A DNA stretch of 64,000 nucleotides from a virus: IMG/VR virus record IMGVR_UViG_3300010354_000054, positions 1-64,000 of that record; one strand, given 5' to 3'. Positions 7,655-56,306 of the stretch are shown here, one piece after another (positions within the stretch are counted from its first letter, which is position 1; each line of letters opens with the position of its first letter). Position numbers and translations under genes: made by a program. The notes under the pieces are model-generated. The model saw only the letters and a list, made by a program, of their open reading frames with translations, did not search any database and had not been told where the DNA came from.

Positions 7655-7666
7655 GTGTTTTTCTCG

Positions 7667-12634: not shown

Positions 12635-12702
12635 TTCAGTCTCTAATTATCAGACAGAGATCAAGGTTCGACCAAGTTAAACTCTTGGAAGTAAGAAACT
12701 TG

Positions 12703-33405: not shown

Positions 33406-33460
33406 AGGACTTAACTATCAATCAGATCTCCTTGACGTATGAAGTTTTTATGAGACAAGA

Positions 33461-34927: not shown

Positions 34928-34929
34928 TA

Positions 34930-35271: not shown

Positions 35272-35286
35272 AGCTCCTCCGTAGAC

Positions 35287-36075: not shown

Positions 36076-36386
36076 TCTTCTGCTTCTTTGCTTTCATTTG
36101 TTTCTGTATCTAGCGAATCATCGAGTATCTTTGCCACATTGATAACTGCATTTTTTGATTCAACGATGTCTTTTATTAGATTTCTTACAACTGGTTCGTC
36201 TGAAAAAACTTCTAGGCGTGACTTTTGATCAATTTTTTGCTTTTGTATCTCTAGGATCTCTAGAGAATTCTGAATTGTTTCTTGAATTTCATCAAATTTG
36301 TCCATAAACTCTAGGTTCTTTTTAAGACTTACGGCGAGAATTGCCGTAAGTGAAATTGATAAAATTGAAAGAAACTCAATGATCAT
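36072..36386 (-). CDS. small membrane-anchored coiled-coil protein
   Basis: 104 residues. Residues 2-21 form one hydrophobic membrane segment (IIEFLSILSISLTAILAVSL), followed by a long heptad-like helix (about 25-55) and an acidic C-terminus. It overlaps both neighbours by four bases. One N-terminal membrane segment with a cytoplasmic or periplasmic coiled coil fits a spanin-like, holin-accessory or membrane-tether protein. No lysis gene is adjacent, so the function is open. Confidence 0.7.
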   Translation of the reverse strand: MIIEFLSILSISLTAILAVSLKKNLEFMDKFDEIQETIQNSLEILEIQKQKIDQKSRLEVFSDEPVVRNLIKDIVESKNAVINVAKILDDSLDTETNESKEAEE

Positions 36387-38829: not shown

Positions 38830-38874
38830 TGTCCCTATATTACGCAAAAATAAAAAGTTGTAACAAAAGTTTAG

Positions 38875-39715: not shown

Positions 39716-39725
39716 TTCACATAGT

Positions 39726-40646
39726 TCAAGTGTTCTTTCGACTGACAGCTCTTCCCGACATCTTCTCCCAGTCTCTTTGTTCAGGAGATCTTACTTCTAG
39801 ATTTTTCTCCCATGCTGCTTTCAAAACTTTAGGATCGACATTGTTCTTCTTTGCAACGTCTATCATTGCATTTACGTCTTTTGGAAAGCAGTGTCCTCCG
39901 TAGCCTCTTGATCCATCGGGACCCGGTACGTTCCAGTGACTTTCTCCTAGGCGCTTGTCATACTTTGCATATTCCACGACTTTATCATAGTCTACGTTAA
40001 GTCCTGACTTATCGAGAGCTTCACATATCTGAGCAATCTCGTTAGCAAATGCAACCTTAACTGTAAGAAAATTATTGGTCAGATACTTTACCATCTCAGC
40101 AGTGGTAGAAGACGTTTTTATGATTGGAACTTTTGGAAATGCCGTCTGAAATACCTGCTTTACAGCGTTAATCCATGGGCGAGGGCCACCTAAAACAATT
40201 CTGTTCTGGTTTCTCATGTCATCAAGCGCGTTTGCCTCAGTTAAAAACTCTGGGTTGAAAACGATGTGCAGTCCCTTCTCGCTGTATTTCTCGTTCCATC
40301 TCTCTGTTGAGCCTGGCGGTACTGTTGATTTGACTACTGCGATTCTTTCACCTGGAATCTGAGAGAGTTCTTCCAGAACACTTTCTACGATGCTCAGGTC
40401 TGCAGAACCATCTTCGAACATGGGTGTTGGAAGACAGACAAAGTATACTCCTGAGAAACCCTCAACAGATTCAGCAAATTCAACAAGACTCTTAGTAGAG
40501 CTTGGTCTGTAGTCATTTGCCCCCACGGCAGTCTTACCCGCTTTGTCGTACGTAAAGACACTAAACCCATGCTCTGAAAAGACTGTTGTGAGTGATCCCC
40601 CCACAAAACCTTGCCCAATGACTGCTATTGACTTTTTCATGTTCAC
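39726..40646 (-). CDS. UDP-sugar 6-dehydrogenase family protein, short form
   Basis: 306 residues against about 390-450 for usual UDP-glucose/UDP-mannose-type dehydrogenases. It has the NAD-binding motif GQGFVG (11-16), NPEFLTEANA (131-140) and the active-site GYGGHCFPKD (248-257) with Cys253. It ends some 50 residues later, so the C-terminal UDP-binding domain is missing. Full-length enzymes oxidise a UDP-sugar to the uronic acid with two NAD+. This one may act as a short variant or use a different substrate. It starts at GTG 40646, overlapping the previous stop; an ATG at 40640 is an alternative. Confidence 0.85.
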   Translation of the reverse strand: MNMKKSIAVIGQGFVGGSLTTVFSEHGFSVFTYDKAGKTAVGANDYRPSSTKSLVEFAESVEGFSGVYFVCLPTPMFEDGSADLSIVESVLEELSQIPGERIAVVKSTVPPGSTERWNEKYSEKGLHIVFNPEFLTEANALDDMRNQNRIVLGGPRPWINAVKQVFQTAFPKVPIIKTSSTTAEMVKYLTNNFLTVKVAFANEIAQICEALDKSGLNVDYDKVVEYAKYDKRLGESHWNVPGPDGSRGYGGHCFPKDVNAMIDVAKKNNVDPKVLKAAWEKNLEVRSPEQRDWEKMSGRAVSRKNT

Positions 40647-41746
40647 TTTGTTTGATCGTTAAAGAGTTTTATCGCGGCGGCCAGCGCCTGATGCATATCA
40701 TAATACTTGTATCTACCAAGTCTACCTGCAACGATGTATTTTGAATCTTTCTTAGATAGAGATTCATACTTTTCATATACAGAATTATTGTTACTGTCGT
40801 TTATAGGGTAATAAGGGACTGAATCGTTGGTCCACTCTGCAGGTGTTTCTGTTGTGATAACAGACTTTTTACCGCTAGCGAACTCAAAGTGTTTGTGCTC
40901 TATTCTTCTAGTCCAGGGAACAGATAGATCGCAGTAGTTGAATATTGCATTTCCTTGGAAATCATCTACATCTTCGATTCTTGTTTCAAACTTTAGAGTT
41001 CTGTATTCAAGAGGACCAAACTTGTAGTCATACAGCCTGTCGACACAACCCGTATAGAGAATCTTTTTTCCAAGCTTCTCTAGAGAAGACTTTTCTTTGA
41101 AAAAGTCTACGCTGAGCTTGACCTCAATCCCGTCCAGCATGTTTTCGAAAATCTTCGTGTAACCATCCTTGGGAATTCCTTGATAGCAGTCTTCGAAATA
41201 ATTGTCATCCCATGTTAATCTGATGGGAAGTCTCTTGAGTATGCTTGCAGGAAGGGAACTAGGCTCTCTTTTCCATTGCTTAGTCGTATATCCATGCACG
41301 AACATCTCATAGATGTCTTTTCCCACTTGCGTGAGTGCCCACTCTTCCATATTTCTTGGATTTGGGTACTTCCTAACATATTCTTCAGTGACTTCATTTA
41401 GTTTCTTCTTTGCCTGGTCTGGGGTTTCAACTCCCCAAAGCTGATAAAGAGTCATCATGTTTATAGGAAAAGAAAATATTCTACCACCAGACACTGCCTT
41501 TGGTCTGTTAACATAATGATTGAATTCGGAAAATCTGTTGATGAATTGCCAGACTTTTTTATCCGATGTGTGAAAAATATGAGGTCCGTAAACGTGAACG
41601 TTTATTCCTTCAATTTTCTGGGTATAACAGTTTCCACCGATGTGGTCTCTCTTGTCTATTACTAGACAGGACTTGCCTGACTCTTTTGCTAGATGCGCAA
41701 ATGTTGCGCCCGTTAATCCGGATCCTACTATCACATAGTCATACAT
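40643..41746 (-). CDS. glf: UDP-galactopyranose mutase
   Basis: 367 residues, normal length for the family. It has the FAD-binding motif GSGLTGATFAHLA (8-20), then DKRDHIGGNCYT and the VHVYGPHIFHT active-site region. It also has the family segments MMTLYQLWGVETPDQA and YTTKQWKREPSSLPASILKRLP. The enzyme interconverts UDP-galactopyranose and UDP-galactofuranose with reduced FAD, supplying Galf for surface glycans. It overlaps its neighbours (8 bases upstream, 4 downstream) within the glycan island, so a Galf-containing glycan is likely. Confidence 0.93.
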   Translation of the reverse strand: MYDYVIVGSGLTGATFAHLAKESGKSCLVIDKRDHIGGNCYTQKIEGINVHVYGPHIFHTSDKKVWQFINRFSEFNHYVNRPKAVSGGRIFSFPINMMTLYQLWGVETPDQAKKKLNEVTEEYVRKYPNPRNMEEWALTQVGKDIYEMFVHGYTTKQWKREPSSLPASILKRLPIRLTWDDNYFEDCYQGIPKDGYTKIFENMLDGIEVKLSVDFFKEKSSLEKLGKKILYTGCVDRLYDYKFGPLEYRTLKFETRIEDVDDFQGNAIFNYCDLSVPWTRRIEHKHFEFASGKKSVITTETPAEWTNDSVPYYPINDSNNNSVYEKYESLSKKDSKYIVAGRLGRYKYYDMHQALAAAIKLFNDQTK

Positions 41747-42650
41747 AGCTCTCTCTTATTGCTGTAACAATATCCAGCCAGTTAAAATTTTCTCTAATGT
41801 ATTCTACAGATCTATAGGTGACAGTGTCAACTGTGTCACTTCTTTCTTCTAGAAGTCTTTTTATTGTCTTTACGGAATGATCAAAATCTTGAAATCCAAT
41901 TTTTGCTGGTATGTCTTCAGCAGAACCGTAAGCATTGTATTCTGGTTCGTAGTCTCTTATGCTAATGCATCCTCTTGCACACGCTTCGATGTCTTTTATC
42001 CACATTGCGTTGGCAGGTATTTTTTCTCCCTCAACTACCCAGTCGACCTTTTCACAATGAGCAAAAATTTTTATCCTTGAAAGCGTCTTCAAGTATCCTG
42101 AATAACCAGAGGTTGGTAGAATTTTTACATTAATTCCATTGTTAGAAAGATGATCGAAAAATTTCTTTCTATAGGGATGAATTTGTCCGCAAAATCCTAC
42201 TTCAATGTCTTTCTTCTGCCAGGCCGTGTGTTCACAATAGCTAGAAAGAACACCCATTCTAACAAACCTAGACGGTAAGTTATTTGATCTAACATGAGAA
42301 GACCACCAGCTGGATGTGTTTAAAAATGTTTTTACATTTAGAGACTTTGCAATTCTATGATAAGAGCCTTTGTAAGGTGAATCGTCTTTAAATGATTCCC
42401 ACGGATCTTGTTCATAAACTATAACGGGATTCTCATTAAGGCATCTCTTGAGATGCTCTAGGCTTCTGTCCAGTGTTCTTAGCTTTAAACAAGAAATAAC
42501 AGGTGATTTGTCGACAGTGTACCCTGATAGAATCTCAGGCATCGTGATTAGTCTAACTTCAAAGTTAGATGCTAACGTATTTATGACTTGATGCTGATAA
42601 CAATTACCCGTGACGTATTCGATAGAATCGACTAATACGTTAATCTTCAT
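41739..42650 (-). CDS. GT-B-like glycosyltransferase
   Basis: 303 residues. The C-terminal half has a GT-B-like acceptor/donor region: EVGFCGQIHPYRKKFF at about 158-175 and a late EACARGCISIRDYEPEYN segment like the donor loop of glycosyltransferases. The N-terminus is a Rossmann-like start. It overlaps glf by eight bases, so it may transfer Galf or the next sugar. Specificity cannot be assigned. Confidence 0.72.
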   Translation of the reverse strand: MKINVLVDSIEYVTGNCYQHQVINTLASNFEVRLITMPEILSGYTVDKSPVISCLKLRTLDRSLEHLKRCLNENPVIVYEQDPWESFKDDSPYKGSYHRIAKSLNVKTFLNTSSWWSSHVRSNNLPSRFVRMGVLSSYCEHTAWQKKDIEVGFCGQIHPYRKKFFDHLSNNGINVKILPTSGYSGYLKTLSRIKIFAHCEKVDWVVEGEKIPANAMWIKDIEACARGCISIRDYEPEYNAYGSAEDIPAKIGFQDFDHSVKTIKRLLEERSDTVDTVTYRSVEYIRENFNWLDIVTAIRESYV

Positions 42651-43390
42651 AAGGACTTCTCTAAATTTGCTATAAGAATATCTTGATCACCAGGCGAAAG
42701 ATTCAGTGCTTCTTCATAAGACTCTATGAACACACTGTTGCTGTAGGAACTATTGTCACCAGACAAAAACTTGCTTTTACTGTTTAAGGCAAAAGATGCT
42801 CCTAAAAGAGCAAATTTTCTTTGCTCTTCTCTTTTAGCTTTTGACACCTTTCGCATGGTTTCTACTTGATTCTTCAGCATCCTGTGAAGACCATAATGAA
42901 AAGATTGCGCAAGAGATGGATTTTTGCAATGGTACCCTATTGGCTCTAGGTGCTTAACGCAGTCTCCTTTTAGAACGACATCATGATTTGTATCTACTCT
43001 ATCACAATAGAGGTCAGGGCTAGTATTGAATTTCACAACAGGTGAAAAGAAATTAAGACCTGATATCAAGCTATCTGTGAAATAGTCGTGTAGACGAATT
43101 TGTACACCTGTGACTCTTTTGTTTTCTTCAAAAAGTTTCCAGACTCGCGATATTGAATATTCGTCCATTAGCACAGTATCTGCGTCTATCTTTACGAATA
43201 AGTCAAAGTTTTCTTTCTGAGATTCCCAGGAAGCCCAAAGCGCATTGTGAGCTTCTTTCTCTTGCAATCCTTCGATTATCTGGTGATGATGGCTTTGCAA
43301 GTCTTTTTGCAATGATACCATAAGTTTGCATTGATCAAATTCAGACTCATTGCTGTGCATCGTTCCAAAAAATACGCGTGGATAATTCAT
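42647..43390 (-). CDS. GT-A-like glycosyltransferase candidate
   Basis: 247 residues. It has a DxD-type metal/nucleotide site in FVKIDADTVLMDE at about 66-78, as in GT2 and related GT-A folds. The short N-terminus ends before a QKDLQSHHHQIIEGLQ loop. No membrane segment was seen. It is flanked by a glycosyltransferase and an acetyltransferase with four-base overlaps. Sugar and acceptor are unknown. Confidence 0.65.
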   Translation of the reverse strand: MNYPRVFFGTMHSNESEFDQCKLMVSLQKDLQSHHHQIIEGLQEKEAHNALWASWESQKENFDLFVKIDADTVLMDEYSISRVWKLFEENKRVTGVQIRLHDYFTDSLISGLNFFSPVVKFNTSPDLYCDRVDTNHDVVLKGDCVKHLEPIGYHCKNPSLAQSFHYGLHRMLKNQVETMRKVSKAKREEQRKFALLGASFALNSKSKFLSGDNSSYSNSVFIESYEEALNLSPGDQDILIANLEKSL

Positions 43391-43884
43391 GTCAAAATTT
43401 TATACATACAAATTTGATCAAAAAATTTGCCGTCTCTATACAAGGAGGAAACCATCTTTCCTTCCTCTATAAATCCAAGCCCTCTATAGACTTTTTGTCC
43501 TACGAGATTGTACTCTGCTGTTGTTAAGCTTACTCTATGCAACCCCCAGCTCTTACAAAGATCTAACATTAGGGACCACATTCCTTTTGCATATCCCATA
43601 CCTCGAAAGTCTTTGTGTATGTCTGCGCCGAGAACACAATTCTTGTTTGTTTGATCAATGCTGTAGAACTTTACAAATCCTACTCTTTGATCATCAACCA
43701 AGAATATTTGCCTTTTTTGAGAAGCGTCTTTCTGTATTTTGCTCCACCAAGACATGTGCTGGTTGAGATCTATCGGATTGGGATGTGTTAAATTTCTCAG
43801 AACTAACGGATCATTGTGAAGATCGACTAGCCACTGATGATCTTCGTCAATTACGTCCCTTAGCGACAATTTTTGGTTTTTCAT
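43387..43884 (-). CDS. GNAT N-acetyltransferase, PseH/RimJ-like
   Basis: 165 residues from the ATG at 43884; GTG codons at 43887 and 43890 are possible but weaker starts. It shows the GNAT fold: HNDPLVLRNL near 25, the acetyl-CoA loop DFRGMGYAKG at about 90-105 and a VYRGLGFIEEG end motif. PseH-type members acetylate the 4-amino group of UDP-4-amino-trideoxy sugars made by PseB/PseC-like enzymes, which are encoded just upstream. It could also be a protein acetyltransferase, but the context favours a sugar role. Confidence 0.78.
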   Translation of the reverse strand: MKNQKLSLRDVIDEDHQWLVDLHNDPLVLRNLTHPNPIDLNQHMSWWSKIQKDASQKRQIFLVDDQRVGFVKFYSIDQTNKNCVLGADIHKDFRGMGYAKGMWSLMLDLCKSWGLHRVSLTTAEYNLVGQKVYRGLGFIEEGKMVSSLYRDGKFFDQICMYKILT

Positions 43885-43895
43885 CACCACTTATC

Positions 43896-44699
43896 TTACA
43901 CAAGATTTTTAAAGTACTCGTCTAAGCAGTTATAGAACTTTTTAGATAGCTCGTGCTGTCTATATGCTTTAGAAAGAGATCCTCTTTGATGAGCCAAAAA
44001 AGGAACACCGTCAAGCTGATACTCCTCGTGGTAGTTGTCACCAGTTCTTAAAACCTTTGCATTGTCTGTTGGCTTTTCTTGAACTAGTATCTTGTAAGGT
44101 ATCTGATTATCATTTAAGTAAGAGGGTATCTGCCAGCCAGTATCCCTTAGCAATTCATATCCAACCGGTAGGTTGTAAAGCTCTGAAAGCTCTGAATTTG
44201 AAATCTGTAAATTGTTTCCTTTTGCAGGAGTTACATCCATGCTAGAAAAACTGTATTTTTTCGAAGCAGCAAACCATGTAAATGAAGGTTTGTCTTTATA
44301 TGTCTGTACAGTACCAGAACCAGAGCATCTTCCGCCTATTCTTTCGTAAGAGCTTCCAAAAACTCCGACATTTTTCAAGATATCGACTGTTGTCTCATCC
44401 CAGCCTTTTACTAGCATTGCAGTATCAGTATCGGCAATAATATCGATTGAATCTGGGTCTGTTTTTTCAAAATTACCCAATGCCACTCTAACAGCATTGC
44501 AATGACCAGTAGTTCCACTTCCGTCAGGAACTCTTACGGGAGTTGAAGTATTTGATACTGAATTATAGCTTTCGTTGTCAAGACAATAGCAATAGAAAGA
44601 AATTGCATGCTTTGTCGCCATATTCAAATAGTTTTCCCTCATGTATTCATAGAAGGGAACTGAAAAACTACTGACAGTAGCATGTACGTTTATTATCAT
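43896..44699 (-). CDS. GT-A-like glycosyltransferase candidate
   Basis: 267 residues. It has GHCNAVRVAL near residue 66 and an IIADTDTAML stretch near residue 90 that reads like the DxD donor site of GT-A enzymes. The rest has no known motif. Its ATG overlaps the stop of the aminotransferase (ATGA). The glycosyltransferase call rests on one motif and context, so it is tentative. Confidence 0.6.
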   Translation of the reverse strand: MIINVHATVSSFSVPFYEYMRENYLNMATKHAISFYCYCLDNESYNSVSNTSTPVRVPDGSGTTGHCNAVRVALGNFEKTDPDSIDIIADTDTAMLVKGWDETTVDILKNVGVFGSSYERIGGRCSGSGTVQTYKDKPSFTWFAASKKYSFSSMDVTPAKGNNLQISNSELSELYNLPVGYELLRDTGWQIPSYLNDNQIPYKILVQEKPTDNAKVLRTGDNYHEEYQLDGVPFLAHQRGSLSKAYRQHELSKKFYNCLDEYFKNLV

Positions 44700-45841
44700 T
44701 TCAGGTAATCTCCCAAAGAATCAATAACAATTCTGGATATTTCCTTTATGTCTTCTTCTGACAACCACCATCCGCAGGGCAAAGAAAATTGAGTGTTTGA
44801 AAATTCTCTTACGCCCGGTAGATCTTTTTTAAATTTTGAGAAGCACGTATAATCATCATTGGGTACATGCACAAGACCCGCCTTGATACCGAATGAATTG
44901 AGTTTTTCTATAAGGCTTAGTTTATCACTTTCCTTTAAAGGTGTTCTAACGGTATAGACCCATCTTGCCGTGTCCTCATCCTTCGATCTAACTAGTGGCG
45001 TAATAGAAGTTCCTGAAAAGAGAGAATCATACAAGGCAGAATTTCTCTTGTGTGTCTCAATTATGTTAGCAACGTGAGGCAATTGAGAGATTCCTACAGC
45101 AGCCGTCAAATTGTTCATGTTAAATTTGTAACCTGCTTCTATTATGTCAACGTCCCACTGCTGACCTTTCCAGTCTCCTTTTGCATCTTTGCTAGAGTCC
45201 CTATCTAAACCAAACCACTTAAGTGATTTTGCTCTTGCAAAAGAATCAGCGTGCCTTGAAGTTAGTATTCCACCGTCGCCGGTCGTGACGTGCTTTATAG
45301 CTTGCAAGCTATAGCAAACATAGTCTGCGACATTCAGCGAAGGATCTACGCCTTTATATTTTGCGTTAAAAGAATGAGCTGCATCTAAGATCAAAGGTAT
45401 TCCTTTGCTCTTGCAGACTTCATATACTTCTTCGATTCTTCCTAGATTTCCTGCCCACGCAACGTAAATGACAGCCTTAGTTTTTTCTGTTATCGCGCTA
45501 AGGATCTGGTCTGGGCCTGGCATGCCTGTTTCGGGATCTATGTCTGTCCAAACTATATTTGCACCTGATGTTACAACAGGTGTATTTGTTGCAACACAAG
45601 TCATGGGGGTCGTTACTACATCATCGCCGTGTGAAACACCGCACAGCTTAAGAGAAAGTGTAATCGCACTTGTGCAGCTATTTAACAATGCTACGTTTGT
45701 TCCGAAAATTTTGCCTAGAGCTTCTTCGAAGTTTTTGACTTGTATTCCTTCGTTGATATAACCAGACTCAAGAACTTCTCTTATTGAAGAGATTGCATTC
45801 TCTACATCGACATGAACTTTAAAGAGTGGATATGATTTCAT
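44696..45841 (-). CDS. DegT/DnrJ/EryC1 sugar aminotransferase, PseC-like
   Basis: 381 residues, normal for the family. It has ESGYINEGIQVKNFE at the start, LNSCTSAI (54-61) for PLP phosphate, LDAAHSFNA (152-160) and the PLP lysine at SLQAIKHVTTGDGG (K183). It ends with a QFSLPCGWWLSEEDI segment typical of these enzymes. PseC converts the 4-keto sugar made by a PseB-type dehydratase to a 4-amino sugar using glutamate. The dehydratase gene is directly upstream with a four-base overlap, supporting this pathway. Confidence 0.88.
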   Translation of the reverse strand: MKSYPLFKVHVDVENAISSIREVLESGYINEGIQVKNFEEALGKIFGTNVALLNSCTSAITLSLKLCGVSHGDDVVTTPMTCVATNTPVVTSGANIVWTDIDPETGMPGPDQILSAITEKTKAVIYVAWAGNLGRIEEVYEVCKSKGIPLILDAAHSFNAKYKGVDPSLNVADYVCYSLQAIKHVTTGDGGILTSRHADSFARAKSLKWFGLDRDSSKDAKGDWKGQQWDVDIIEAGYKFNMNNLTAAVGISQLPHVANIIETHKRNSALYDSLFSGTSITPLVRSKDEDTARWVYTVRTPLKESDKLSLIEKLNSFGIKAGLVHVPNDDYTCFSKFKKDLPGVREFSNTQFSLPCGWWLSEEDIKEISRIVIDSLGDYLK

Positions 45842-46869
45842 TGCTTAGCTCCGTCAATCTCTTCAATAGTTCTACCTTCAAACTTTTCAAGACCCATATC
45901 GAGTATTCCGAGCTTCATTAGCTTGTCTTCAAGTTGTTCAGCAGTCATTACATCGTCAGCAGACGTATATTCAAAAGCCTTTTCATCTCCCGGCGTCAGA
46001 GAAGAAGAGATTGCTATAACCTCATCCTTGATGGTACATCTGACGGATTCTGAAGCATTGATCAATGCTTCGTGCATCTTCTCTCCAGGCCTTAGTCCTA
46101 CCACCTTTATAGGTTTGCCAGATCTCTTTGAAAATATTTCAGCTAGATCTCCAATTCTCATTGACGGAAGTCGAGGAACAAATATCTGACCTGATTCTGC
46201 ACCGTTGATTGCGCTGACTATAAGGTTAACACTCTCATCAAGTGTCATAACAAACCTAGTCATCTCTGGGTCAGTTACGGTGAGATGCGGTAGATTTTCT
46301 GACTGGTATTTGAATAGTGGAATGATGCTTCCTCTTGACTCAAGCACATTTCCGTATCGGACTCCGATGTATCTCGATTTTGTTTGAGTATCGAAAGACA
46401 TGCTCGTTACAAGTCTTTCTGAGACTGCCTTGCACATTCCATAAACATTTATTGGAGAGCATGCCTTGTCAGTACTCACAAAGAGAAGCGTCCTAGTCTT
46501 TCCTGTAAGTTTCTCAAGCTCATAAACGGACTCGACAACATTTTGTGTTCCTTGCAAATTTGTAAGGACGCTTTCTCTGGGAGAGAGTTCACAAGTATCA
46601 ACTTGCTTTAATGCTGCAGCAACAATTACGATATCGGCATCGGTTTGATGAAGAGCTTGAGTTACTCTTTGTTTATCTCTAATGTCGCCAACAATAAAGT
46701 TGACATTTTTAAAACCTTCAACAGTAGAAAGTTCATTTCTTATAGTCCAATGCTTGGCCTCATCTCTTGAGTAAGCATAGACTTTGTTATCCGCCATAAA
46801 TCTCTTTATAAGCGTCTTCCCTAAAGAACCAGTACCACCAAAAATAAGAATGTTTTTTGACTCAGACAT
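45838..46869 (-). CDS. UDP-GlcNAc 4,6-dehydratase family, PseB/CapE-like
   Basis: 343 residues of the extended SDR fold. It has FGGTGSLG (10-17) for NAD(P), AAALKQVD (84-91), the TDK site (133-135) and YGMCK (143-147). It also has DPEMTRFVMTLDESVNLI in the middle and a C-terminal extension. PseB/CapE-type enzymes make a UDP-4-keto-6-deoxy-aminosugar from UDP-GlcNAc, the first step to pseudaminic acid, bacillosamine-like or fucosamine-type sugars. It is followed by the PseC-like and acetyltransferase genes. Its start codon is in a small AGACA/TGTCT hairpin. Confidence 0.9.
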   Translation of the reverse strand: MSESKNILIFGGTGSLGKTLIKRFMADNKVYAYSRDEAKHWTIRNELSTVEGFKNVNFIVGDIRDKQRVTQALHQTDADIVIVAAALKQVDTCELSPRESVLTNLQGTQNVVESVYELEKLTGKTRTLLFVSTDKACSPINVYGMCKAVSERLVTSMSFDTQTKSRYIGVRYGNVLESRGSIIPLFKYQSENLPHLTVTDPEMTRFVMTLDESVNLIVSAINGAESGQIFVPRLPSMRIGDLAEIFSKRSGKPIKVVGLRPGEKMHEALINASESVRCTIKDEVIAISSSLTPGDEKAFEYTSADDVMTAEQLEDKLMKLGILDMGLEKFEGRTIEEIDGAKQ

Positions 46870-46891
46870 TTTGTCTAAGTATAAACTATTT

Positions 46892-47722
46892 CTATCCGAC
46901 GTTCACGAAATTTTCTTCGTTAACAGCCTGAATAGAGTCTTCTCTAGTCATTTTATATCCGTGTTGCTGAAGCTTGTTCTTGTCACTCCAGCTGCCTGTA
47001 AGTGTATCTGACTCGAAAGATTCTTTTGTGTTAAAGATGCCTCCGTCATATACGGCTGACTCTTTATAAAACTTAAAGTATTGTTCTTGAAAGTCAATTT
47101 CTGTAAATTTTCCCATTTTTCTGAGTTCACAGAAAGCATTTTCCATAAAACTTATTCTGTTCAATGAACAAACTTGAGGTGACAAATTTGTTCTGTAGAT
47201 GCTTCCTTCAGGTCTCTCAAAGTAAGCTTTCTGATTAGTGAAATGGTTTGACTGTCTCATCCACGCCCATTTTCTTGAGTCTTGCGTGGGAAAGTTTTTG
47301 TCGTATAGATGCTTTTCTTTTACTGAAAACTCTTGCAGTCTAATGGATCCTACGTCGGCATTATTTTCTAAATATTTTTCGCATTCAACGATTGACTCTA
47401 CGTATCCTGGGAAGTGTATTGCGTCCGACTCTATGACATAGACGTAATCTAGCTTACTTTTCAGTATAGACTCATAATTTTGCAAGCACCAGTCTACTGC
47501 AGTCCAAAATCCATAATTCGTAGAAGAGAAGAAGGAATTTTTAGTCAGGCTTTTTAATTTCTCTTTAGTGTTTTGGTAAACTGAAGAATTATCAAAAGCG
47601 ATTACTCTGTCTTTTGGTAGATCTTGTATGGAATTGACAACTTTTTCAGCTATTTCATCTCGAATTTTATCTCGAGAGCAAGTTACCAATACGAAAAGAG
47701 TGTTCTTTGGTACTTCTTTCAC
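46892..47722 (-). CDS. GT-A-like glycosyltransferase candidate
   Basis: About 276 residues from the GTG at 47722. This start forms a GTGA overlap with the previous stop and has GGAGAAGG four bases upstream, so I prefer it to the ATG at 47749, which has the ribosome site too close. A YVYVIESDAIHFPGYVESI stretch near residue 95 looks like the donor site of GT2/GT-A enzymes, and a KWAWMRQSNHFTN segment lies further on. No more is recognised, and no membrane segment was seen. Confidence 0.65.
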   Translation of the reverse strand: MKEVPKNTLFVLVTCSRDKIRDEIAEKVVNSIQDLPKDRVIAFDNSSVYQNTKEKLKSLTKNSFFSSTNYGFWTAVDWCLQNYESILKSKLDYVYVIESDAIHFPGYVESIVECEKYLENNADVGSIRLQEFSVKEKHLYDKNFPTQDSRKWAWMRQSNHFTNQKAYFERPEGSIYRTNLSPQVCSLNRISFMENAFCELRKMGKFTEIDFQEQYFKFYKESAVYDGGIFNTKESFESDTLTGSWSDKNKLQQHGYKMTREDSIQAVNEENFVNVG

Positions 47723-48828: not shown

Positions 48829-48834
48829 TTTTTC

Positions 48835-49734
48835 TCACAAATTAGAAATTAATCTTCTATATTGAACATAACCTTCTGGCAATTTCCAGGAAGATACATC
48901 CGGTATGTTTGGTATTGCCTCAGATATGTTGTCGTTTATTGAGTCCAAAGGTAAAACTTGGCTTGCAATTCCGACATTTCTTGATATTACAGGAATATCA
49001 AGAAGGCCACATTCTATTAACGATTGAGGTCCGCCCTCTGTTCTTGCAGTAACTGGATATAGATCAAGACACTGATATAAGTCATTTATTGTGTCGTGGG
49101 GTGGTCTTTCAAAATAAGCATAAGGAATTCCTGCCTTCTCCAGGCGGGATATGACGTATTGTCTTCTCCAGCCCGCTAAAACTACAAACAAATCTTTCCT
49201 TTTAAGGAATAGTTTCTCCAAGTAGTCAGCTAGAATATCAGGTCCCTTTTCTAGCTTTGGGCTTTTTAAATCATGACCTTCTGTATCTCTTTGAAAAGAT
49301 CCAACCAGGTAAGCGCCAGCAGGTAAATTATATTTTACTCTTAGGCTTAATCTATCTTCTGTTTTTTTCCAAATTTTCTGATTAGCCCAGTAGGGTATCA
49401 GGTGTATTGGTTTGCTAGTAAGCGGTCTTATGAAGTCTAAAGTAGACTGATTATAGACGTGATAAACAGTAGTAATGCTATCTCTTAAAGCGAAATCATC
49501 TTTTTCTTTTTCCCCAAACTTTTCGGGAACTATATGATGAACTGTCGTTATTACTTTCTTAGTGGATAAAATGGAAGGTGGAACGTTCCTCCAGCACCAA
49601 TCTGCTAAAAGCCAAATAACATCTGCATTATGTGGGTTGTCTACACACATATCAGCATTGTCTTCGGTCCACTCCTTGACCATTCTATCAACTATCCATC
49701 CCTCTCCTGGTGGAAGAACATAGACTTTGGGCAT
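48835..49734 (-). CDS. GT4-type glycosyltransferase
   Basis: 299 residues. It has the GT-B pattern VGSFQRDTEG (donor-domain start), FVVLAGWRR and the acidic donor motif TEGGPQSLIECGLLDIPVIS at about 235-255. The N-terminal domain includes TTVHHIVPEKFGEKE. It is short but complete. It is part of the unbroken glycosyltransferase run and has no signal peptide, so it acts in the cytoplasm. Confidence 0.82.
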   Translation of the reverse strand: MPKVYVLPPGEGWIVDRMVKEWTEDNADMCVDNPHNADVIWLLADWCWRNVPPSILSTKKVITTVHHIVPEKFGEKEKDDFALRDSITTVYHVYNQSTLDFIRPLTSKPIHLIPYWANQKIWKKTEDRLSLRVKYNLPAGAYLVGSFQRDTEGHDLKSPKLEKGPDILADYLEKLFLKRKDLFVVLAGWRRQYVISRLEKAGIPYAYFERPPHDTINDLYQCLDLYPVTARTEGGPQSLIECGLLDIPVISRNVGIASQVLPLDSINDNISEAIPNIPDVSSWKLPEGYVQYRRLISNL

Positions 49735-49758
49735 AAAAGTAACTATATTAACAATCTT

Positions 49759-50688
49759 CTACTTTGTATTCGTCTTTAACTTCTGCAGAAGATGTACAAC
49801 TCTTCTAACATTTTCTTCCATGTCATGGATCTCTTCAGTTGCTGATGAATATGTCTCTATTCTTCTGATGAGGCTTTCTTTGTTGCTTAGACATTCTTTT
49901 ATTTTGCTTATTATTTTTTCTTCTGAGTCGCTTTCTTCTATTGATAGCATACTCTCTGACATTCTCTTGTCCATGTAAGTGGGTACATCTCCCACGGGCA
50001 AAACTTTCGAAAATCCAAACTCAACATATTTGGCAACTAATCTGTCTCTAAAATTTCCTGCTTTGCAAGTTACGCCCAGCCAGCATCTATCTAGCAGTTC
50101 TAGAAATTTTTCTCCATGATACTGGTGTGTTGCTTTTGAAGCTTCCATACCTGAGTGAGGTAGATAGGCAAATTTTACATCCGACTTGCTCAATGCACTT
50201 AGAATCTTAGTTCTTGTTGGATAATAAGACGCATCCATTTGGCCCGAAACAAGCACATCGATATCTTTGTTTGATATGTCTACCATTCTTTTAGATCCAC
50301 AAAGCGGTAGAGTAATAACTTCCAGCCCTTTAGACGATAAGAAATCTAAATTTCTCTTAGAGGGATAAGCATTTATGATAGTGTTAGATCCTACTTCTTC
50401 TAGAAATTTTAGCTGAGTTCTGTACAGAATTGCATCACTTTTGCTTTCGTCTATTGAATGTAAAACTTTTACACAGTTTAAAGACTTAAGTTTCTCTAGA
50501 CTCTTTTGAGATTCTACTGAGATATAGACGACTACTACGTCTTCATCTGATGGATTGAAATTGCTATTAAGAAAATTTGATTCAGTAAGTGCTATGCATC
50601 CGTTTTTTTCAAACGTAGATATCAAATCTGATCCGCTTGATTTACACGTGTAATCTTTTTGAGAGTCTTTAAAAACGTAGTAGATCAT
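49759..50688 (-). CDS. GT-B-like protein, probable glycosyltransferase
   Basis: 309 residues. Two Rossmann-like halves: DVVVVYISVESQKSLEKL early and DIDVLVSGQMDASYYPTRTKIL near 150. A RCWLGVTCKAGNFRDRLVAKYVEFGFSKVLPVG region follows, where GT-B enzymes bind the donor. The usual E-x7-E motif is absent. The call is tentative and rests on fold pattern and neighbours. It ends in a helical C-terminus. Confidence 0.6.
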   Translation of the reverse strand: MIYYVFKDSQKDYTCKSSGSDLISTFEKNGCIALTESNFLNSNFNPSDEDVVVVYISVESQKSLEKLKSLNCVKVLHSIDESKSDAILYRTQLKFLEEVGSNTIINAYPSKRNLDFLSSKGLEVITLPLCGSKRMVDISNKDIDVLVSGQMDASYYPTRTKILSALSKSDVKFAYLPHSGMEASKATHQYHGEKFLELLDRCWLGVTCKAGNFRDRLVAKYVEFGFSKVLPVGDVPTYMDKRMSESMLSIEESDSEEKIISKIKECLSNKESLIRRIETYSSATEEIHDMEENVRRVVHLLQKLKTNTK

Positions 50689-51617
50689 TTCAATAGTCTT
50701 TCAAATATGTCTAGATACTTGTTGACACAAGATTCAATAGAGACGTCTATGTCGTAAGTAAGGTCTTTCTTTTCAGGAAGATATTTTAGCTGAGTAACGT
50801 CTAAATCTGGTGGATTATCGTAATCCGTAAGCTGATATTCGTAAGGAATATTTTCTTTTAAGACTATTCCAAAACTTCCAAGAAGTTCTTTTGTGCCTCC
50901 GTCTTCGGAGCATATGACTGGTGTTCTTACAGATAGTGCTTCGACAACTGTATTGGGGCAATGATCCAACCAACCAAGATGAATCATCCAGTCTGATTCT
51001 TTGAATATTTGCATACAGACATCATGCGGTATGTTTCCTGTAACATACACGTCTTTTTCATTAAGTCTTCCATCTAAAGATCCCATTATCACGAGACAAG
51101 AATTCTTGTGAAAGTTATTCTTGATGTAGTTAAAAAGCTCTATATTGCTTTTTAACCTTTTTTGAGGATGCCAGTTAGCAGAAGACACAAAAATTTTTTC
51201 ATGTCTTTCTCTTAGATTTTTTATGGCATTTTCAGTCTCTTGACTAAAGCTTTTTGGCTGTGGACATCCATTCCTTATCACTGATCCTAGCTTAGGAATC
51301 CCCCACCACTTAGTAATCATACTTTTATCAAATTCTGATTGCCATACCACGTAATCAGCGGACTGGTATGTTGATTTTATACCCGTGTTGTTGGTATAAA
51401 ATTGATTAGGAGCAAACCAAATACCATCTATCCGCTGTACTACTTTCGGTGCAAGCGGTCTTCCTGATTTTTCTATAAAAACCAGAGAAATATCAGCATC
51501 TTTACCAGAAAAAGTGATTTCATGACCCAGCTCAATCACTTTTTCAGAAAATCTTTTTGCAAATGAATTAGGACCTGATCTAGAGCTTAAGTTAACATTG
51601 TCTAGATGTATTTTCAT
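50685..51617 (-). CDS. GT4-type glycosyltransferase
   Basis: 310 residues. The N-terminus MKIHLDNVNLSSRSGPNSFAKRF and WQSEFDKSMI are GT-B-like. FVSSANWHPQKRLKSNIELFNY (donor-domain start) and CPNTVVEALSVRTPVICSEDGGTKELLG (about 245-270) are typical of GT4. It overlaps both neighbours by four bases. It is likely retaining; donor and acceptor are unknown. Confidence 0.88.
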   Translation of the reverse strand: MKIHLDNVNLSSRSGPNSFAKRFSEKVIELGHEITFSGKDADISLVFIEKSGRPLAPKVVQRIDGIWFAPNQFYTNNTGIKSTYQSADYVVWQSEFDKSMITKWWGIPKLGSVIRNGCPQPKSFSQETENAIKNLRERHEKIFVSSANWHPQKRLKSNIELFNYIKNNFHKNSCLVIMGSLDGRLNEKDVYVTGNIPHDVCMQIFKESDWMIHLGWLDHCPNTVVEALSVRTPVICSEDGGTKELLGSFGIVLKENIPYEYQLTDYDNPPDLDVTQLKYLPEKKDLTYDIDVSIESCVNKYLDIFERLLK

Positions 51618-51970
51618 GATCTTCTCTTGACAGCAGAAATGAACACATCACCGAATACCGTTCCATTCATCATAGTTGCCAACAAAGCCAACTCTTTTGT
51701 CGGTATTTCAGTCGTTGTTGCTCGCTTCGTGAAGATTGAGGGATCTAACTCCTGGTTTCCGTTAACTGTTACGCTGTCATAATACATCTGAGAAAGAAGA
51801 TTGACCGATTCATTGCTAAGTGGAGTTTGTGTCTCTTTGACAAGTTCAGATATGGTGTAAAAAATGTCTCCATAAATTTCCATACACGTAGACTTATCAA
51901 ATTTCTGCTCTAGCCTTCTTTGAAGTCTATCATTTAAAAGTTTAGTAACTGCTTCGTGTATGCTTTTCAT
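51614..51970 (-). CDS. small unknown protein embedded in the glycosyltransferase run
   Basis: 118 residues, basic at both ends, with RLQRRLEQKFD near 20 and VNGNQELDPSIFTKRATTTEIP in the second half. It has no glycosyltransferase motif, membrane segment or metal site. The gene overlaps the following glycosyltransferase by four bases and starts one base after the previous one. It may be a conserved phage protein caught in the island or a small partner of the glycosyltransferases. The function is unknown. Confidence 0.7.
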   Translation of the reverse strand: MKSIHEAVTKLLNDRLQRRLEQKFDKSTCMEIYGDIFYTISELVKETQTPLSNESVNLLSQMYYDSVTVNGNQELDPSIFTKRATTTEIPTKELALLATMMNGTVFGDVFISAVKRRS

Positions 51971-52876
51971 TCAATTCACTTTCTTTAAAACTTCATAGAA
52001 ACTTTTTACACAAGCTTCCCAATTCTTAGGTAGCCAACAAGTGTTCTTAGAATATGATTTGCTTGACAAGATGTTTAATAGCTGATTGACGTCTTGGTAT
52101 ACGTGATCTTGACCTGCAAATTCCACGCATCCACCGCCATCTTTGTGAACATAAGTTGGTAATCCGCAAGATATAGATTCTATGATGTGATTGGGACCAG
52201 GATCAAATCTTGAAGCAGATACATAAACATCGTATTTACCAAGTTCTTCTCCTAGCTCTTTTCCAAATAAAGGCTTTACAACTTTAGCATTCTTGAAAGT
52301 TCCTCTTTCTCTGCCGATGTATGTGAAAGTAAAGTCCTGATTCTTTAAAGTCCACTCATCTATTAAATCATAGATGTCAAATCCTTTCATAACATTGTCG
52401 GACCAGTGATGTGTCACAATGTTTATCTTTTCATTCTGTAATTTTGGTGATTCTCTATAGATTTGACTGTCGACACCGTTGTAGATATAGGAGGCTTTTT
52501 CACCCAGGCTTTCTGCTTGAAAGTAATCGTATAGCCATCTGGAAACGAAAACTACGTGATCACAATGTCTTGCAATTCTTCTTATTGAATCATCTACACC
52601 TGTAGTAGATTTTCTTGCGTCATTCTCGTTTACCCTCATGACAAGTCTTACGTTTCTTCCATGAGATGCTGACATTTCTTTGTATCTAATCGCTTCATCA
52701 GCTGATATACAGTTGCCTTCTCTGCCTATTCCTGCGATTAAAATAACATCTGGTGATTCCGATATCTCTACAAGAGATATTCCAAGGCTTGGAAGAATGC
52801 TGTACATAGATTGTACCCACATATTTCCACCTCCCCATGGACCAACAACAGGCTTTCTGTTTATGTAGACTTTCAT
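51971..52876 (-). CDS. GT4-type glycosyltransferase
   Basis: 301 residues. It has GGGNMWVQSM near the start, HVVFVSRWLYDYF, YIYNGVDSQIYR and the donor motif RFDPGPNHIIESISCGLPTY at about 230-250. This is the standard GT-B arrangement with a short N-terminal domain. It begins in a four-base overlap with the GT2 gene. Function: adds one sugar to an unknown acceptor. Confidence 0.88.
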   Translation of the reverse strand: MKVYINRKPVVGPWGGGNMWVQSMYSILPSLGISLVEISESPDVILIAGIGREGNCISADEAIRYKEMSASHGRNVRLVMRVNENDARKSTTGVDDSIRRIARHCDHVVFVSRWLYDYFQAESLGEKASYIYNGVDSQIYRESPKLQNEKINIVTHHWSDNVMKGFDIYDLIDEWTLKNQDFTFTYIGRERGTFKNAKVVKPLFGKELGEELGKYDVYVSASRFDPGPNHIIESISCGLPTYVHKDGGGCVEFAGQDHVYQDVNQLLNILSSKSYSKNTCWLPKNWEACVKSFYEVLKKVN

Positions 52877-53598
52877 TCTACGTAGCCTCTGCTTCTTAGG
52901 AAGACAGCTTCGTCTCTTTGAAACCTTGCATCATCAGTCTGATAAGTTTCAGGAACGTCTTTAATCGTGTAGTGATACATTACTCTTGGAATAAAAACTC
53001 TATTGCTAGAATTTCTTAAGGCGGGCAAATAAATTGCCTGATCACCTGCTCGCCTTATGTAATTTCCGTCTTCGCCCCTAAAGTTTTCGTCCTTAACGTC
53101 TCTTAAAAGTTTCTTTCTAAATGTTTTTAGATGACTTGATACCCACGGGTGAGAATAAGGATCTGCATCATTTGACATTGGTCCGCTAATGTTCTTATCT
53201 GAAAAACTCCATCGATGTGCAGTCCAGGCAATGTCACACTTTGTGTTCTCGTAAGTGTAATTGATGATAGCAAGACCGTCTAAGTCTGTAAGCCAATCAT
53301 CCGCATCTATTCTGCAGACTATGTCTTCATCATTACACATCGATATTCCTTTTAGAACATTAGAGACTTCCCATTCTTTAGTGTCGTTCCAAATGGCTGT
53401 TGTTTTACCTGGTTTTAATTCTTCGAATTTTCTGACTGTTTCTTTTGCAGCTTCGCTATGATCCTTGTTAGATACATCATCTATTAGTACCAATCTCCAG
53501 TTATCGTAAGACTGACCATACAAGGAGTGCATCATTCTAGGTAGAGTTTCCGATGCATTGAACATCGGTGCTACAAAAACGAAGTTGTTAGACTTCAT
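52873..53598 (-). CDS. GT2-type glycosyltransferase
   Basis: 241 residues. It is a GT-A fold with the family start VAPMFNASETLPRMMHSLYGQSYDNWRLVLIDDVS and the DxD motif CRIDADDWLTD at about 93-103. It ends with GDQAIYLPAL. It inverts the sugar from a nucleotide donor using a metal ion. It shares four-base overlaps with the methyltransferase and GT4 genes, so the three are likely co-translated. Confidence 0.9.
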   Translation of the reverse strand: MKSNNFVFVAPMFNASETLPRMMHSLYGQSYDNWRLVLIDDVSNKDHSEAAKETVRKFEELKPGKTTAIWNDTKEWEVSNVLKGISMCNDEDIVCRIDADDWLTDLDGLAIINYTYENTKCDIAWTAHRWSFSDKNISGPMSNDADPYSHPWVSSHLKTFRKKLLRDVKDENFRGEDGNYIRRAGDQAIYLPALRNSSNRVFIPRVMYHYTIKDVPETYQTDDARFQRDEAVFLRSRGYVE

Positions 53599-54308
53599 AG
53601 TAGCTCCGGTTTTGTCATCAAAACTTGACCATAATCGACTTGATCGTCCGGTATTCTTCGGTCGTCGAAGAATATTCTTCTATCCATTATGATCAGCTCT
53701 TTTGTAGCATCTTCAATACTGTCTATTAGATCTCTGCATTGTATGCCGGGATCATTTTTTGTGGGCATATGATAGTCGTCGAACAATATGCACTTGTTCC
53801 ACTTGTCCTTAGTCATCTCCCAGTCAAATTTAGTCCCTTCATACGAATGATCTCCATCGATATAGACAAGATCAAATTTCTCATTGATTTGCGGGAGTGC
53901 TTGAGTGGAAGTACCCTTCATGAAAGTAATGCAATCAAACCAGCTTGAAGGGAATACAGACTGTAAGTTTCTTATGTGATTCTCATCGAAGTTAGGGTCA
54001 ACCGTTACAATTCTTCCCTTTATTCCCGCATCGCTAAAAGCTTTTGCTGCGCAAAAAGTTGAATATCCTCTTCCGAATCCTATCTCAAGCATTGACTCTA
54101 TCTTGTATTTCTTGATAAGCTCGCTTATTAGAATTCCTCTCTCGTAATTTGATCTATAGAAAGCACCGACTTTTCTATAGAGCTCACTTTCTTGACCTCT
54201 ACTTCTTTCAGCAGTAAATCTTCCAATTATATCGAAATCTCCTAGAGCAACATTCTCTACAGAAGTCCCTAGATCAATCAGCTTTTTTCTTATGTCGATA
54301 ATCTTCAT
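53595..54308 (-). CDS. class I SAM-dependent methyltransferase
   Basis: 237 residues. It has SAM motif I LEIGFGRGYST at about 74-84, VTVDPNF (motif II acid) and YIDGDHSYEGTKFDW near 150, the pattern of Methyltransf_24-type enzymes that methylate sugars or small molecules. An N-terminal helical part precedes the domain. In this island the likely target is a sugar hydroxyl of the growing glycan, often a capping step; that is inference. Confidence 0.88.
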   Translation of the reverse strand: MKIIDIRKKLIDLGTSVENVALGDFDIIGRFTAERSRGQESELYRKVGAFYRSNYERGILISELIKKYKIESMLEIGFGRGYSTFCAAKAFSDAGIKGRIVTVDPNFDENHIRNLQSVFPSSWFDCITFMKGTSTQALPQINEKFDLVYIDGDHSYEGTKFDWEMTKDKWNKCILFDDYHMPTKNDPGIQCRDLIDSIEDATKELIIMDRRIFFDDRRIPDDQVDYGQVLMTKPELL

Positions 54309-54323
54309 TTCTTTTTAGACTTT

Positions 54324-56231
54324 CTAGCTTGACATTATCTTTGGTTGCGTCTTTTTTACAACAATGTGTGGTGTTGATCGACCATCCCACTTTCTATGCC
54401 AAATCCATCCGCCTGTTTTTTCAGTGAGTAATTTTGCTCTTTCTTCTATCATTTCTTCGGTGACTTCTGACCAAGGCACGTCAAACATCATATTCGTTGA
54501 AGATGTGTCTTCAAGAGAACCATTAAAAAGAGAATTCCAATGACGTGTCCAGTAGTCTCTATAGAGTCTCATTTTTCTTGACATGTTATACCAAGAATAG
54601 TGATGAACACCAGGTATATTTTCAACAACTCTGTTGAACCAGTCTTGATAAACAGAGATTGCCTCCAAATTTCCAGAGACAGCAGCAATTCTTACTCTTT
54701 CTGACTCCTCCGTATGAAAAGTCAAATGATTGATAATTTCTCCGGTTACCTTGTGAATCATGTCACAGCCATCGGTACCTTGCAAAGCATAAACACCTAG
54801 TTTATCTTCTCTCCTCAAGTGTGAGGGTATTCCGTGCGTGATATGAGGAAGATTTCTACTCAGTCTCCATTTCCAGGGCTGAATGTCTGCTCGAACCTTT
54901 TCTGGTCCTCCCCAGTATTCTATGACTGGAAGTGAAAGAATTTCTACATTGGCGGGGAATTTGCTACAGAGGTCTACAATCTTTTGATAATCTTCTTCGT
55001 GAACAACTTCGTCAGAGTCCATCTGCCAGCAAAATTCAGACGTGCACATAGATCTTGCTTCTGCCTTCTGCATACCGTCAAAAACAGCATGTCTTGGGTG
55101 AGACCAGTCTCTTTGTACCTTTTTTACTTTTAGACGAGGATCTTGTCTGGAGATCTTCTCGAGATTTTCTAGAGTTCCGTCAGTGCTACCGCCGTCTACA
55201 ACACAAACTTCGTCACAAAATCCAAGCATGGATTTGATAGATTGCTCGTATGGGTATCCCTGCTTTTCACAGTTATAAGTAGTGATGTAACCACTAATCG
55301 TAGGCTTCTTGTTCATAATTTTAGTTATCGCTTTCCAGAAAAGATCTGGTGATACACTTAGGTACTCTTCGATCGAATCCAAATCATCTGTTGCAAACCA
55401 TGTTTCATCTTTGTGCTGAACGTTTTCATTAATATGAAGTTTGCATCCCAAAAGTTTTGCTTCTATGACCATTCTTGGACATGTGTCTCCGCCTGAAGGC
55501 AAGTAGACAAATCCTTCTGCCGCAGCCATTTTTGCCAAGAGCTGTTCATAAGGAACATCCCAAACTATTTCATAGTTTTTCTTATTTTCTTCACACCAAG
55601 TCTTTGCTGCCTCAAATCCTTTTACCCACGACTGAGATCCCAAAACAATCCAACCATTACGTTCATCTTCTTTGATAGTCTCTCTCAAAAGTTTAAGAAT
55701 TCCAAGAGTTTTTCTGGAGAATACAGAAGATAAAACGATGTTGTCTTTTTCAGCAAGAAAAGGAAAAAGAGTGTGATATCTTTCTTTTTGCTTCTCTGAC
55801 ATCCACCACATAGACTGAGCGCCGTAGTAGAAAGCTGATATCAGTTTTCCATTCATCTGATTGTGACAGTCGCAAAGAAGTCCTGTAGAAACCTGATGTT
55901 TCTCGGGAGATCTAAACTTACAATACTTGTAGTCGTACTCAAGAATAGAATATTTGAGATTTGCAACGATGCTTGGAATTAGCTCTGGGTTCATTTGAGA
56001 AAAGTTACCAAATAACCAGAACTTTTTAAGTCCTTGATTCAATACTGAAAGATTGACATCTTTTGCGTAGATCTTTTGAATCTTGTAGGGTGATCTTTGA
56101 ATTATCGCTTCCGATGTCATCTCTGCACCACCAGCGTAATCTTCTTCAAATAGATCAGCTACAAATACTACTTCTGTATCATCTCTGATTAGTTTATTTG
56201 GATTTATAAAGATCTGATCTTTAAAATTCAT
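54324..56231 (-). CDS. two-domain glycosyltransferase, GT4-like plus GT2
   Basis: About 635 residues from the ATG at 56231 (GAGAAA upstream). A TTG at 56246 would add five residues. The first half is GT-B-like: FEEDYAGGAEMTSEAII, WIVLGSQSWVKGFEAAKTW, FVYLPSGGDTCPRMVIEAKLLG. The second half is GT2: ISGYITTYNCEKQGYPYEQSI, VVDGGSTDGT and a CWQMDSDEVVHEED donor site, then an extension with ITHGIPSHLRRED. It is the first gene of the leftward block. A fusion of two transferases may add two sugars in order. The substrates are unknown. Confidence 0.85.
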   Translation of the reverse strand: MNFKDQIFINPNKLIRDDTEVVFVADLFEEDYAGGAEMTSEAIIQRSPYKIQKIYAKDVNLSVLNQGLKKFWLFGNFSQMNPELIPSIVANLKYSILEYDYKYCKFRSPEKHQVSTGLLCDCHNQMNGKLISAFYYGAQSMWWMSEKQKERYHTLFPFLAEKDNIVLSSVFSRKTLGILKLLRETIKEDERNGWIVLGSQSWVKGFEAAKTWCEENKKNYEIVWDVPYEQLLAKMAAAEGFVYLPSGGDTCPRMVIEAKLLGCKLHINENVQHKDETWFATDDLDSIEEYLSVSPDLFWKAITKIMNKKPTISGYITTYNCEKQGYPYEQSIKSMLGFCDEVCVVDGGSTDGTLENLEKISRQDPRLKVKKVQRDWSHPRHAVFDGMQKAEARSMCTSEFCWQMDSDEVVHEEDYQKIVDLCSKFPANVEILSLPVIEYWGGPEKVRADIQPWKWRLSRNLPHITHGIPSHLRREDKLGVYALQGTDGCDMIHKVTGEIINHLTFHTEESERVRIAAVSGNLEAISVYQDWFNRVVENIPGVHHYSWYNMSRKMRLYRDYWTRHWNSLFNGSLEDTSSTNMMFDVPWSEVTEEMIEERAKLLTEKTGGWIWHRKWDGRSTPHIVVKKTQPKIMSS

Positions 56232-56306
56232 AATTTCATTTCTCAAATTTCTAAATTTATTTCTATTTAACAGAGATAGAAATTACTGTCCCAGGGAGAA
56301 ATGTAT
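56232..56306. promoter_or_regulatory. divergent promoter region between leftward and rightward blocks
   Basis: An AT-rich gap of 75 bases separating the two divergent transcription units. Read leftward it contains TTAAATAGAAATAAATTTAG, with AATAAAT close to a T4-type late -10 box, about 30 bases before the ATG at 56231. Read rightward a ribosome site (GGAG, 56295-56298) is clear, but no strong promoter is seen. Confidence 0.35.

Follow-up and report, generated by a model that had tools for sequence, protein, structure and literature searches.

Hypervariable islands of glycosyltransferase (GT) genes are already known in T4-like and jumbo phages, and the published accounts read them as modifiers of the host surface (PMC7029224, PMC7824862). 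Phage GT islands are common, and whether their target is DNA, the host surface, or the virion has mostly been argued from annotation. Here, we analyzed a locus at positions 39726-56231 of a 64,000-base stretch (the window; bases 1-64000 of the 98,644-base viral metagenome record IMGVR_UViG_3300010354_000054, the remaining bases of which were examined too), where all genes lie on the minus strand, and we propose, at about an even chance, that it is a phage-borne cytosolic system for virion-protein glycosylation with constant and exchangeable parts. The hypervariable host-recognition cluster of pelagimyophages is likewise a large, nonsyntenic island with GTs and a UDP-glucose dehydrogenase within the T4-like structural region; however, that cluster lies between VrlC and gp14 and is mixed with fibers (PMC7029224), whereas the present locus lies between a sigma factor/GT4 pair and w38 (w4-w38 denote window genes) and has constant ends and a compact, sugar-only content. 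The capsular-polysaccharide modification clusters of jumbo cyanophages similarly comprise polymorphic sets of GT and sugar-nucleotide genes that vary among related phages, but their gene sets and neighborhood are different, and the accessible part of that account describes no constant w38/w34 frame (PMC7824862). The moraphages, described in 2025, resemble this group: they are jumbo phages from aquatic habitats that encode four core GT orthogroups, a sigma factor, and gp25/gp6 and carry variable islands whose content is unexplained. They can be set beside this group by description only, and the excerpts available do not describe the locus (PMC12619734).

Other glycosylation systems share individual features. 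Flagellin glycosylation islands of bacteria such as Geobacillus vary between strains and place PseB/PseC-type or nonulosonate genes next to the gene for the acceptor, with distinct glycans predicted (PMC5109656); these are bacterial islands with flagellin as the acceptor, whereas no flagellin or Maf-like transferase was seen here. Chlorovirus PBCV-1 encodes mostly soluble GTs, multidomain enzymes, and methyltransferases that produce a conserved core with virus-specific outer sugars, but it is a eukaryotic virus with a proven acceptor, the N-glycosylated capsid protein (PMC9614988), whereas the acceptor here is a prediction. Mycobacteriophages also glycosylate virions with phage-encoded GTs, on the C-termini of capsid and tail-tube proteins according to a secondary summary (Freeman 2023, via PMC12619734); the present locus is far larger, and its acceptor is a prediction. 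Within a partial coverage of the literature, no description was found of the fixed-frame locus, its constant uncharacterized protein, cassette exchange at the same fiber, or phage nonulosonate cassettes. The defined frame (w38, w34, and w21-w18), together with a pair of phages with the same fiber and different cassettes, opens the question of the target to experiment; should the glycans be located on virions, then phages would vary in a serotype-like manner that is invisible to fiber-based host prediction.

We addressed the organization of the locus by retrieving the corresponding region of 19 related contigs of jumbo T4-like phages and calling its genes, which gave 20 islands including the window. 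Complete islands were 14-27 kb, and their proteins of at least 100 amino acids (aa; n=401) fell into 150 families, 99 of which occurred once. The usual order was divergent replication-side genes, w38, a core (w36, w35, w34, w33, and w31), a variable middle, and then w21, w20, w19, and w18, followed by w17, sigma, and baseplate genes; exceptions were few, such as G007, in which w34 and a w33 relative adjoin w20. w38 was present in every island, followed by w34 and w21 (table 1). Because at least 19 further contigs carry the locus, the island is not a chance arrangement, and its conserved flanks around a nonorthologous middle in close relatives mark it as a hypervariable island at a fixed site. 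At the sequence level, the end genes and a transferase core are constant, the middle varies, and machinery for export across the membrane is absent. The exchangeable middle was invisible to the original prediction, which had only one sequence at hand.

The variable-gene content did not follow the backbone. When backbone identity (w19, w18, w15, and w14) was compared with shared variable genes in 120 pairs, the two were decoupled: the nearest relatives, G001 (85.5% backbone identity) and G002 (79.3%), had 1/11 window variable genes in common, and G016 and G019 (53-54%) had 7/11. At the DNA level, G001 was 97.6% identical to the window over 1-9603 (the distal fiber), 88% over 10056-20940, and 75.7% over 24476-40466, and nothing in G001 aligned with 40467-48947. 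As the fiber at 1898-7654 was 99.9% identical across 1,918 residues, the two phages have practically the same fiber but different sugar cassettes. The cassette of the window contains PseB/C/H-like enzymes and a galactofuranose (Galf) mutase, and that of G001 contains a MocA-type oxidoreductase, a DegT aminotransferase, and a hexapeptide acyltransferase, which may form a WbpB/WbpE/WbpD-like set, together with a carbamoyltransferase and a nucleotidyltransferase. A NeuB/PseI synthase (PF03102) was absent across the 98.6-kb contig of the window and present in G006, G008, and G002, where NeuB and a cytidine monophosphate (CMP)-transferase with a weak UDP-GlcNAc 2-epimerase-like match constitute a nonulosonate set. 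Among families not found in the window, the commonest Pfam matches were to glycosyltransferases, methyltransferases, epimerases/dehydratases, aminotransferases, and nucleotidyltransferases. Thus, phages of this group probably differ in their sugar coat as bacteria do in serotype. We tentatively extend this to a serotype locus, in which a constant glycan initiator, w34 as helper or acceptor, and exchangeable cassettes would produce different virion glycan coats despite the same receptor-binding fiber, with old cassette types kept across diverged lineages. We also observed that the fiber module shared with G001 lies beside baseplate-side proteins (20468-24678) that match at only about 40-42% (L163, L204, and L205), which suggests a recent exchange of the fiber module between phages.

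In the proposed pathway, the enzymes would turn host uridine diphosphate (UDP)-sugars into activated sugars, which in the window would be a UDP-diacetamido-trideoxyhexose-like sugar (dehydratase, aminotransferase, and acetyltransferase), UDP-Galf (mutase), and a UDP-uronic acid (dehydrogenase). Soluble transferases would then attach them one by one, with w38, w18, w19, and the core GTs acting first, to a soluble virion protein from the same leftward run, most likely the Ser/Thr-rich fibers or another surface protein. The cassette would set the outer sugars and decorations (methyl, carbamoyl, and acetyl; nonulosonate in relatives), and related phages could thereby change glycotype with their fibers unchanged; the likely benefit would be altered surface recognition, that is, escape from binding, defense, or exclusion. 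A virion acceptor is favored because it agrees with the solubility of the enzymes, with the gene order, and with fibers rich in Ser/Thr. The island is part of a leftward run of 38 genes, in which consecutive genes are separated by -31 to 68 bp, in agreement with the tight leftward packing described originally, and this run continues unbroken into sigma, baseplate, and very long fiber genes, through a nuclease, two GT4 genes, and then a gp55-like sigma factor. The fibers, which had been called Ser/Thr-rich, indeed had the highest Ser/Thr content on the contig (26% for 7667-12634, 25.5% for 12703-20466, and 23% for 1898-7654; median 14.8%).

The two most constant proteins were modeled with AlphaFold. 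The w38 model (predicted local distance difference test [pLDDT] 88.5) has a C-terminal GT2/GT-A domain with an invariant D410-S-D412 and an N-terminal half that lacks a Pfam match and contains a conserved E262AK motif. Its best fold match in the PDB was the peptide S-glycosyltransferase SunS (E 3e-11), followed by ThuS, chondroitin polymerase, TarS, and RmlT; the modeled likeness to SunS is compatible with a polypeptide acceptor without proving one. No w38 relatives were found among annotated phages or 84,980 species genomes. The helical w34 (pLDDT 88) had no Pfam or NCBIfam family, and fold searches against PDB and viral structures returned nothing below E 1.8; it may be a helper, a regulator, or an acceptor. 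A strongly diverged tandem copy of w34 was observed in several relatives (L058:15666-16453, L069:14446-15209, L057:7624-8384, L053:14546-15285, and L060:14589-15384).

Several points weigh against a virion acceptor. Both the acceptor protein and the glycan are predictions; the w38-SunS match is at the fold level (15% identity), and similarly ranked matches include teichoic-acid and chondroitin transferases; a host lipid carrier and flippase could serve the phage transferases; and deoxycytidine monophosphate (dCMP)-hydroxymethylase-like enzymes in seven large relatives make DNA a possible acceptor for some transferases. In addition, the T4 late promoter TATAAATA was not enriched (2 found versus 1.9 expected), so late expression is deduced solely from gene order.

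Export machinery bears on the best surviving alternative, a rather doubtful one, in which the transferases act in the cytosol on lipid-linked O-antigen or capsule units of the host and extend them for display by its flippase, polymerase, and ligase, with the receptor changed and competing phages blocked. The families that stand for flippase, polymerase, and lipid-carrier initiator were absent (PF02397, PF01943, and PF00953 in 24 records and PF04932 in 19 records), with working positive controls; an initiating phosphoglycosyltransferase, flippase, and polymerase, as expected of a Wzx/Wzy-dependent polysaccharide locus, were therefore lacking, and no membrane GT occurred in any tested record. 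The original prediction had seen no flippase, polymerase, or bactoprenol initiator, and the family searches confirm this and extend it to relatives. No transmembrane segments were predicted in the island proteins of the window, and the sole recurrent one near the locus was in w17, beside sigma. As the 20 islands have no membrane, flippase, or lipid-carrier genes, the acceptor is more likely to be soluble and cytosolic, for example a virion protein. This lack argues against a self-sufficient pathway for O-antigen or capsule, not against the use of host export, and host-surface modification is the published reading of the pelagimyophage (PMC7029224) and jumbo cyanophage (PMC7824862) transferase islands. 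Galf, diacetamido sugars, uronic acids, and nonulosonates are also typical of bacterial surface glycans, and fibers and host surface, the two targets named originally, are both possible. However, the gene order leads into virion genes, and two phages with nearly identical fibers have different cassettes.

Glycosylation of DNA, with some or all transferases building glycans on 5-hydroxymethylcytosine as protection against nucleases, appears unlikely. Work by Pyle in 2024, cited in PMC12619734, reportedly describes phage clusters that place mono- to trisaccharides on this base. The DNA target was not considered originally and is a real rival because dCMP-hydroxymethylase-like proteins occur in 7/24 records, mostly the largest. 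In these thymidylate-synthase-family proteins (L197, L198, L199, L200, L201, L202, and L203), which are encoded outside the islands, Asp replaces Asn at the cytosine-selecting position, a change that denotes cytosine preference in this family (PMC5175136); hydroxymethylcytosine is therefore likely in the group. Nevertheless, the island has no hydroxylase or methylase, and at least eight transferases with wholesale exchange of outer sugars go beyond the known short DNA glycans. No dCMP-hydroxymethylase-like gene was found in the 98.6-kb contig, which is a fragment; a search for T4-type AGT gave no match, but its control was equally silent. Flavobacterium phage immuto and Microcystis phage Mel-JY01 have relatives of w20-w19-w18 in unchanged order, and Rhodothermus RM378 has the GT pair. 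Since RM378 and Mel-JY01 keep the w19/w18 pair and have no PF00303 gene, and immuto keeps it along with a thymidylate-synthase-like (Asn) PF00303 protein, a virion acceptor is supported over DNA. In immuto, transferase and aminotransferase genes of its own continue beyond the w20-w19-w18 module. The same phage (L159) carries 7-deazaguanine DNA-modification genes, and its separate GT/aminotransferase island adjoins this nuclease-GT-GT module.

It is very improbable that the locus is a common parking site and not a single pathway, with the end GTs (w38, w18, and w19) and the middle serving different acceptors: the modules of immuto, Mel-JY01, and RM378 do occur without w38 or w34 relatives, but in a distant lineage a 702-aa single frame (L074:2171-4276) fuses a w18 relative to the w38 N-terminal domain, and in L074/L075 this fusion adjoins w19, w20, and w36/w33 relatives, which ties the two ends together functionally.

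Pfam and NCBIfam searches backed all of the sugar-nucleotide enzymes originally named (dehydrogenase, Galf mutase, acetyltransferase, aminotransferase, and dehydratase) and the O-methyltransferase-like protein (table 1). The w22 score exceeded the TIGR00031 equivalog cut-off, which identifies it as a UDP-galactopyranose mutase. PseB, PseC, and PseH were the best-scoring families for w28, w27, and w25, although all three scores fell under the equivalog cut-offs (269.7 versus 407.75 bits for TIGR03589, 204.7 versus 423.5 for TIGR03588, and 47 versus 93.1 for TIGR03585, respectively), and the contig thus lacks both the above-cut-off PseB/PseC/PseH set and the NeuB/PseI synthase that would define a CMP-pseudaminic acid pathway. 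Because of these scores and the absence of later pathway genes in the window, the predicted product is a UDP-diacetamido-trideoxyhexose-like sugar rather than CMP-pseudaminic acid. The dehydrogenase w21 belongs to the TIGR03026 subfamily (210.9 versus 189.8 bits) and has the active-site motif GGHCFPKD, but lacks PF03720 of the three-domain UDP-glucose 6-dehydrogenase (PF03721, PF00984, and PF03720). At 306 aa (family median in relatives, 318 aa), it is a consistently shortened form that lacks the C-terminal domain but has the active-site Cys.

Of about 13 transferases originally counted, eight had profile support, five above the Pfam cut-off (starting at 36383, 37576, 50685, 52873, and 54324) and three below it with E < 1e-3 (46892, 48835, and 51971). 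The other five (41739, 42647, 43896, 47719, and 49759) gave no match in the Pfam scan, and their best probability in profile comparison with supported transferases was 22%. The reading as a dedicated phage locus that makes a complex glycan and transfers it is well supported, and the "long glycan" is plausible with fewer transferases than claimed. The right end had been placed at 56231, but the ATG there is internal to an open frame that begins at the TTG at 56246.

Table 1. Coordinates and family support of genes in and around the island
Gene	Product	Coordinates	Strand	Support	Islands (of 20)
w38	Two-domain glycosyltransferase, first locus gene	54324..56246	-	PF00535 above cut-off	20
w37	S-adenosylmethionine-dependent O-methyltransferase-like	53595..54308	-	PF13578 62.9 bits	8
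w36	GT2 glycosyltransferase, core	52873..53598	-	PF00535 54 bits	17 (main family)
w35	GT4-like glycosyltransferase, core	51971..52876	-	PF13439 E 4.6e-5, below cut-off	17
w34	Conserved 118-aa helical protein	51614..51970	-		19 (main family)
w33	GT4 glycosyltransferase, core	50685..51617	-	PF00534 47.8 bits	16
w32	Candidate transferase	49759..50688	-	No Pfam match; no profile similarity to supported GTs
w31	GT4-like glycosyltransferase, core	48835..49734	-	PF00534 E 1.4e-5, just below cut-off	17
w30	Candidate GT-B transferase	47719..48828	-	No Pfam match; weak similarity to w33, 15% probability
w29	GT2-like glycosyltransferase	46892..47749	-	PF00535 E 2.9e-4; profile match to w38 C domain, 83% probability
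w28	UDP-GlcNAc 4,6-dehydratase-like short-chain dehydrogenase/reductase, nearest PseB	45838..46869	-	PF02719 266 bits; CapE/FlaA1-type PDB relatives
w27	DegT sugar aminotransferase, nearest PseC	44696..45841	-	PF01041 236 bits
w26	Candidate GT-A transferase	43896..44699	-	No Pfam match; only DxD-like motif DTD at residue 90
w25	GNAT N-acetyltransferase, nearest PseH	43387..43890	-	PF13302 51 bits
w24	Candidate GT-A transferase	42647..43390	-	No Pfam match; DAD motif; weakly similar to w36 (22% probability)
w23	Candidate transferase	41739..42650	-	No Pfam match; no profile similarity
w22	UDP-galactopyranose mutase	40643..41746	-	TIGR00031 384.1 versus cut-off 303.75 bits	2
w21	Short UDP-sugar 6-dehydrogenase, left-end gene	39726..40646	-	PF03721 + PF00984	18
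w20	PD-(D/E)XK exonuclease-like, constant left flank	38875..39690	-	PHROG exonuclease matches
w19	GT4 glycosyltransferase, constant left end	37576..38847	-	PF00534 48.9 bits; homologues in immuto, Mel-JY01, RM378
w18	GT4 glycosyltransferase, constant left end	36383..37579	-	PF00534 37 bits
	gp55-like late sigma factor, downstream neighbor	35287..36075	-	phrog_234
w4-w6	Three giant Ser/Thr-rich fiber proteins, candidate acceptors	1898..20466	-

The contig encodes a gp55-like sigma factor and gp6-like and gp25-like baseplate proteins, and terminase, portal, and capsid genes were assigned by reading of translations; on these genes, it is identified as part of the genome of a T4-like phage that is only distantly related to T4. 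Relatives of its terminase and sigma factor were found on contigs of up to 369 kb, which indicates a jumbo phage group, and the carriers of the locus are large T4-like freshwater jumbo phages. By baseplate protein, the closest isolates were immuto and Mel-JY01 at about 30% identity, a level also observed for the uncultured phage LR756508; the island as a nucleotide query gave no matches among annotated phages. Promoter-like sites were no commoner than in shuffles, and terminator-like sites were slightly above them (15 versus 10.9). A Flavobacterium-type promoter, TTTG-N-TAnnTTTG, was found 7 times versus 0-4 in mononucleotide shuffles and was judged unconvincing. The UDP-Galf mutase indicated no donor or host, with genome matches of 50-56% across many phyla, and foreign origin by composition was rejected, the G+C content of the island (36-41%) being similar to that of the baseplate region. 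A Shine-Dalgarno-like motif preceded just 14/50 called window genes, which would fit a Bacteroidota host, although this is weak evidence. Among the divergent neighbor genes, 56855-57988 encodes a protein partly similar to phage GroEL (phrog_5725).

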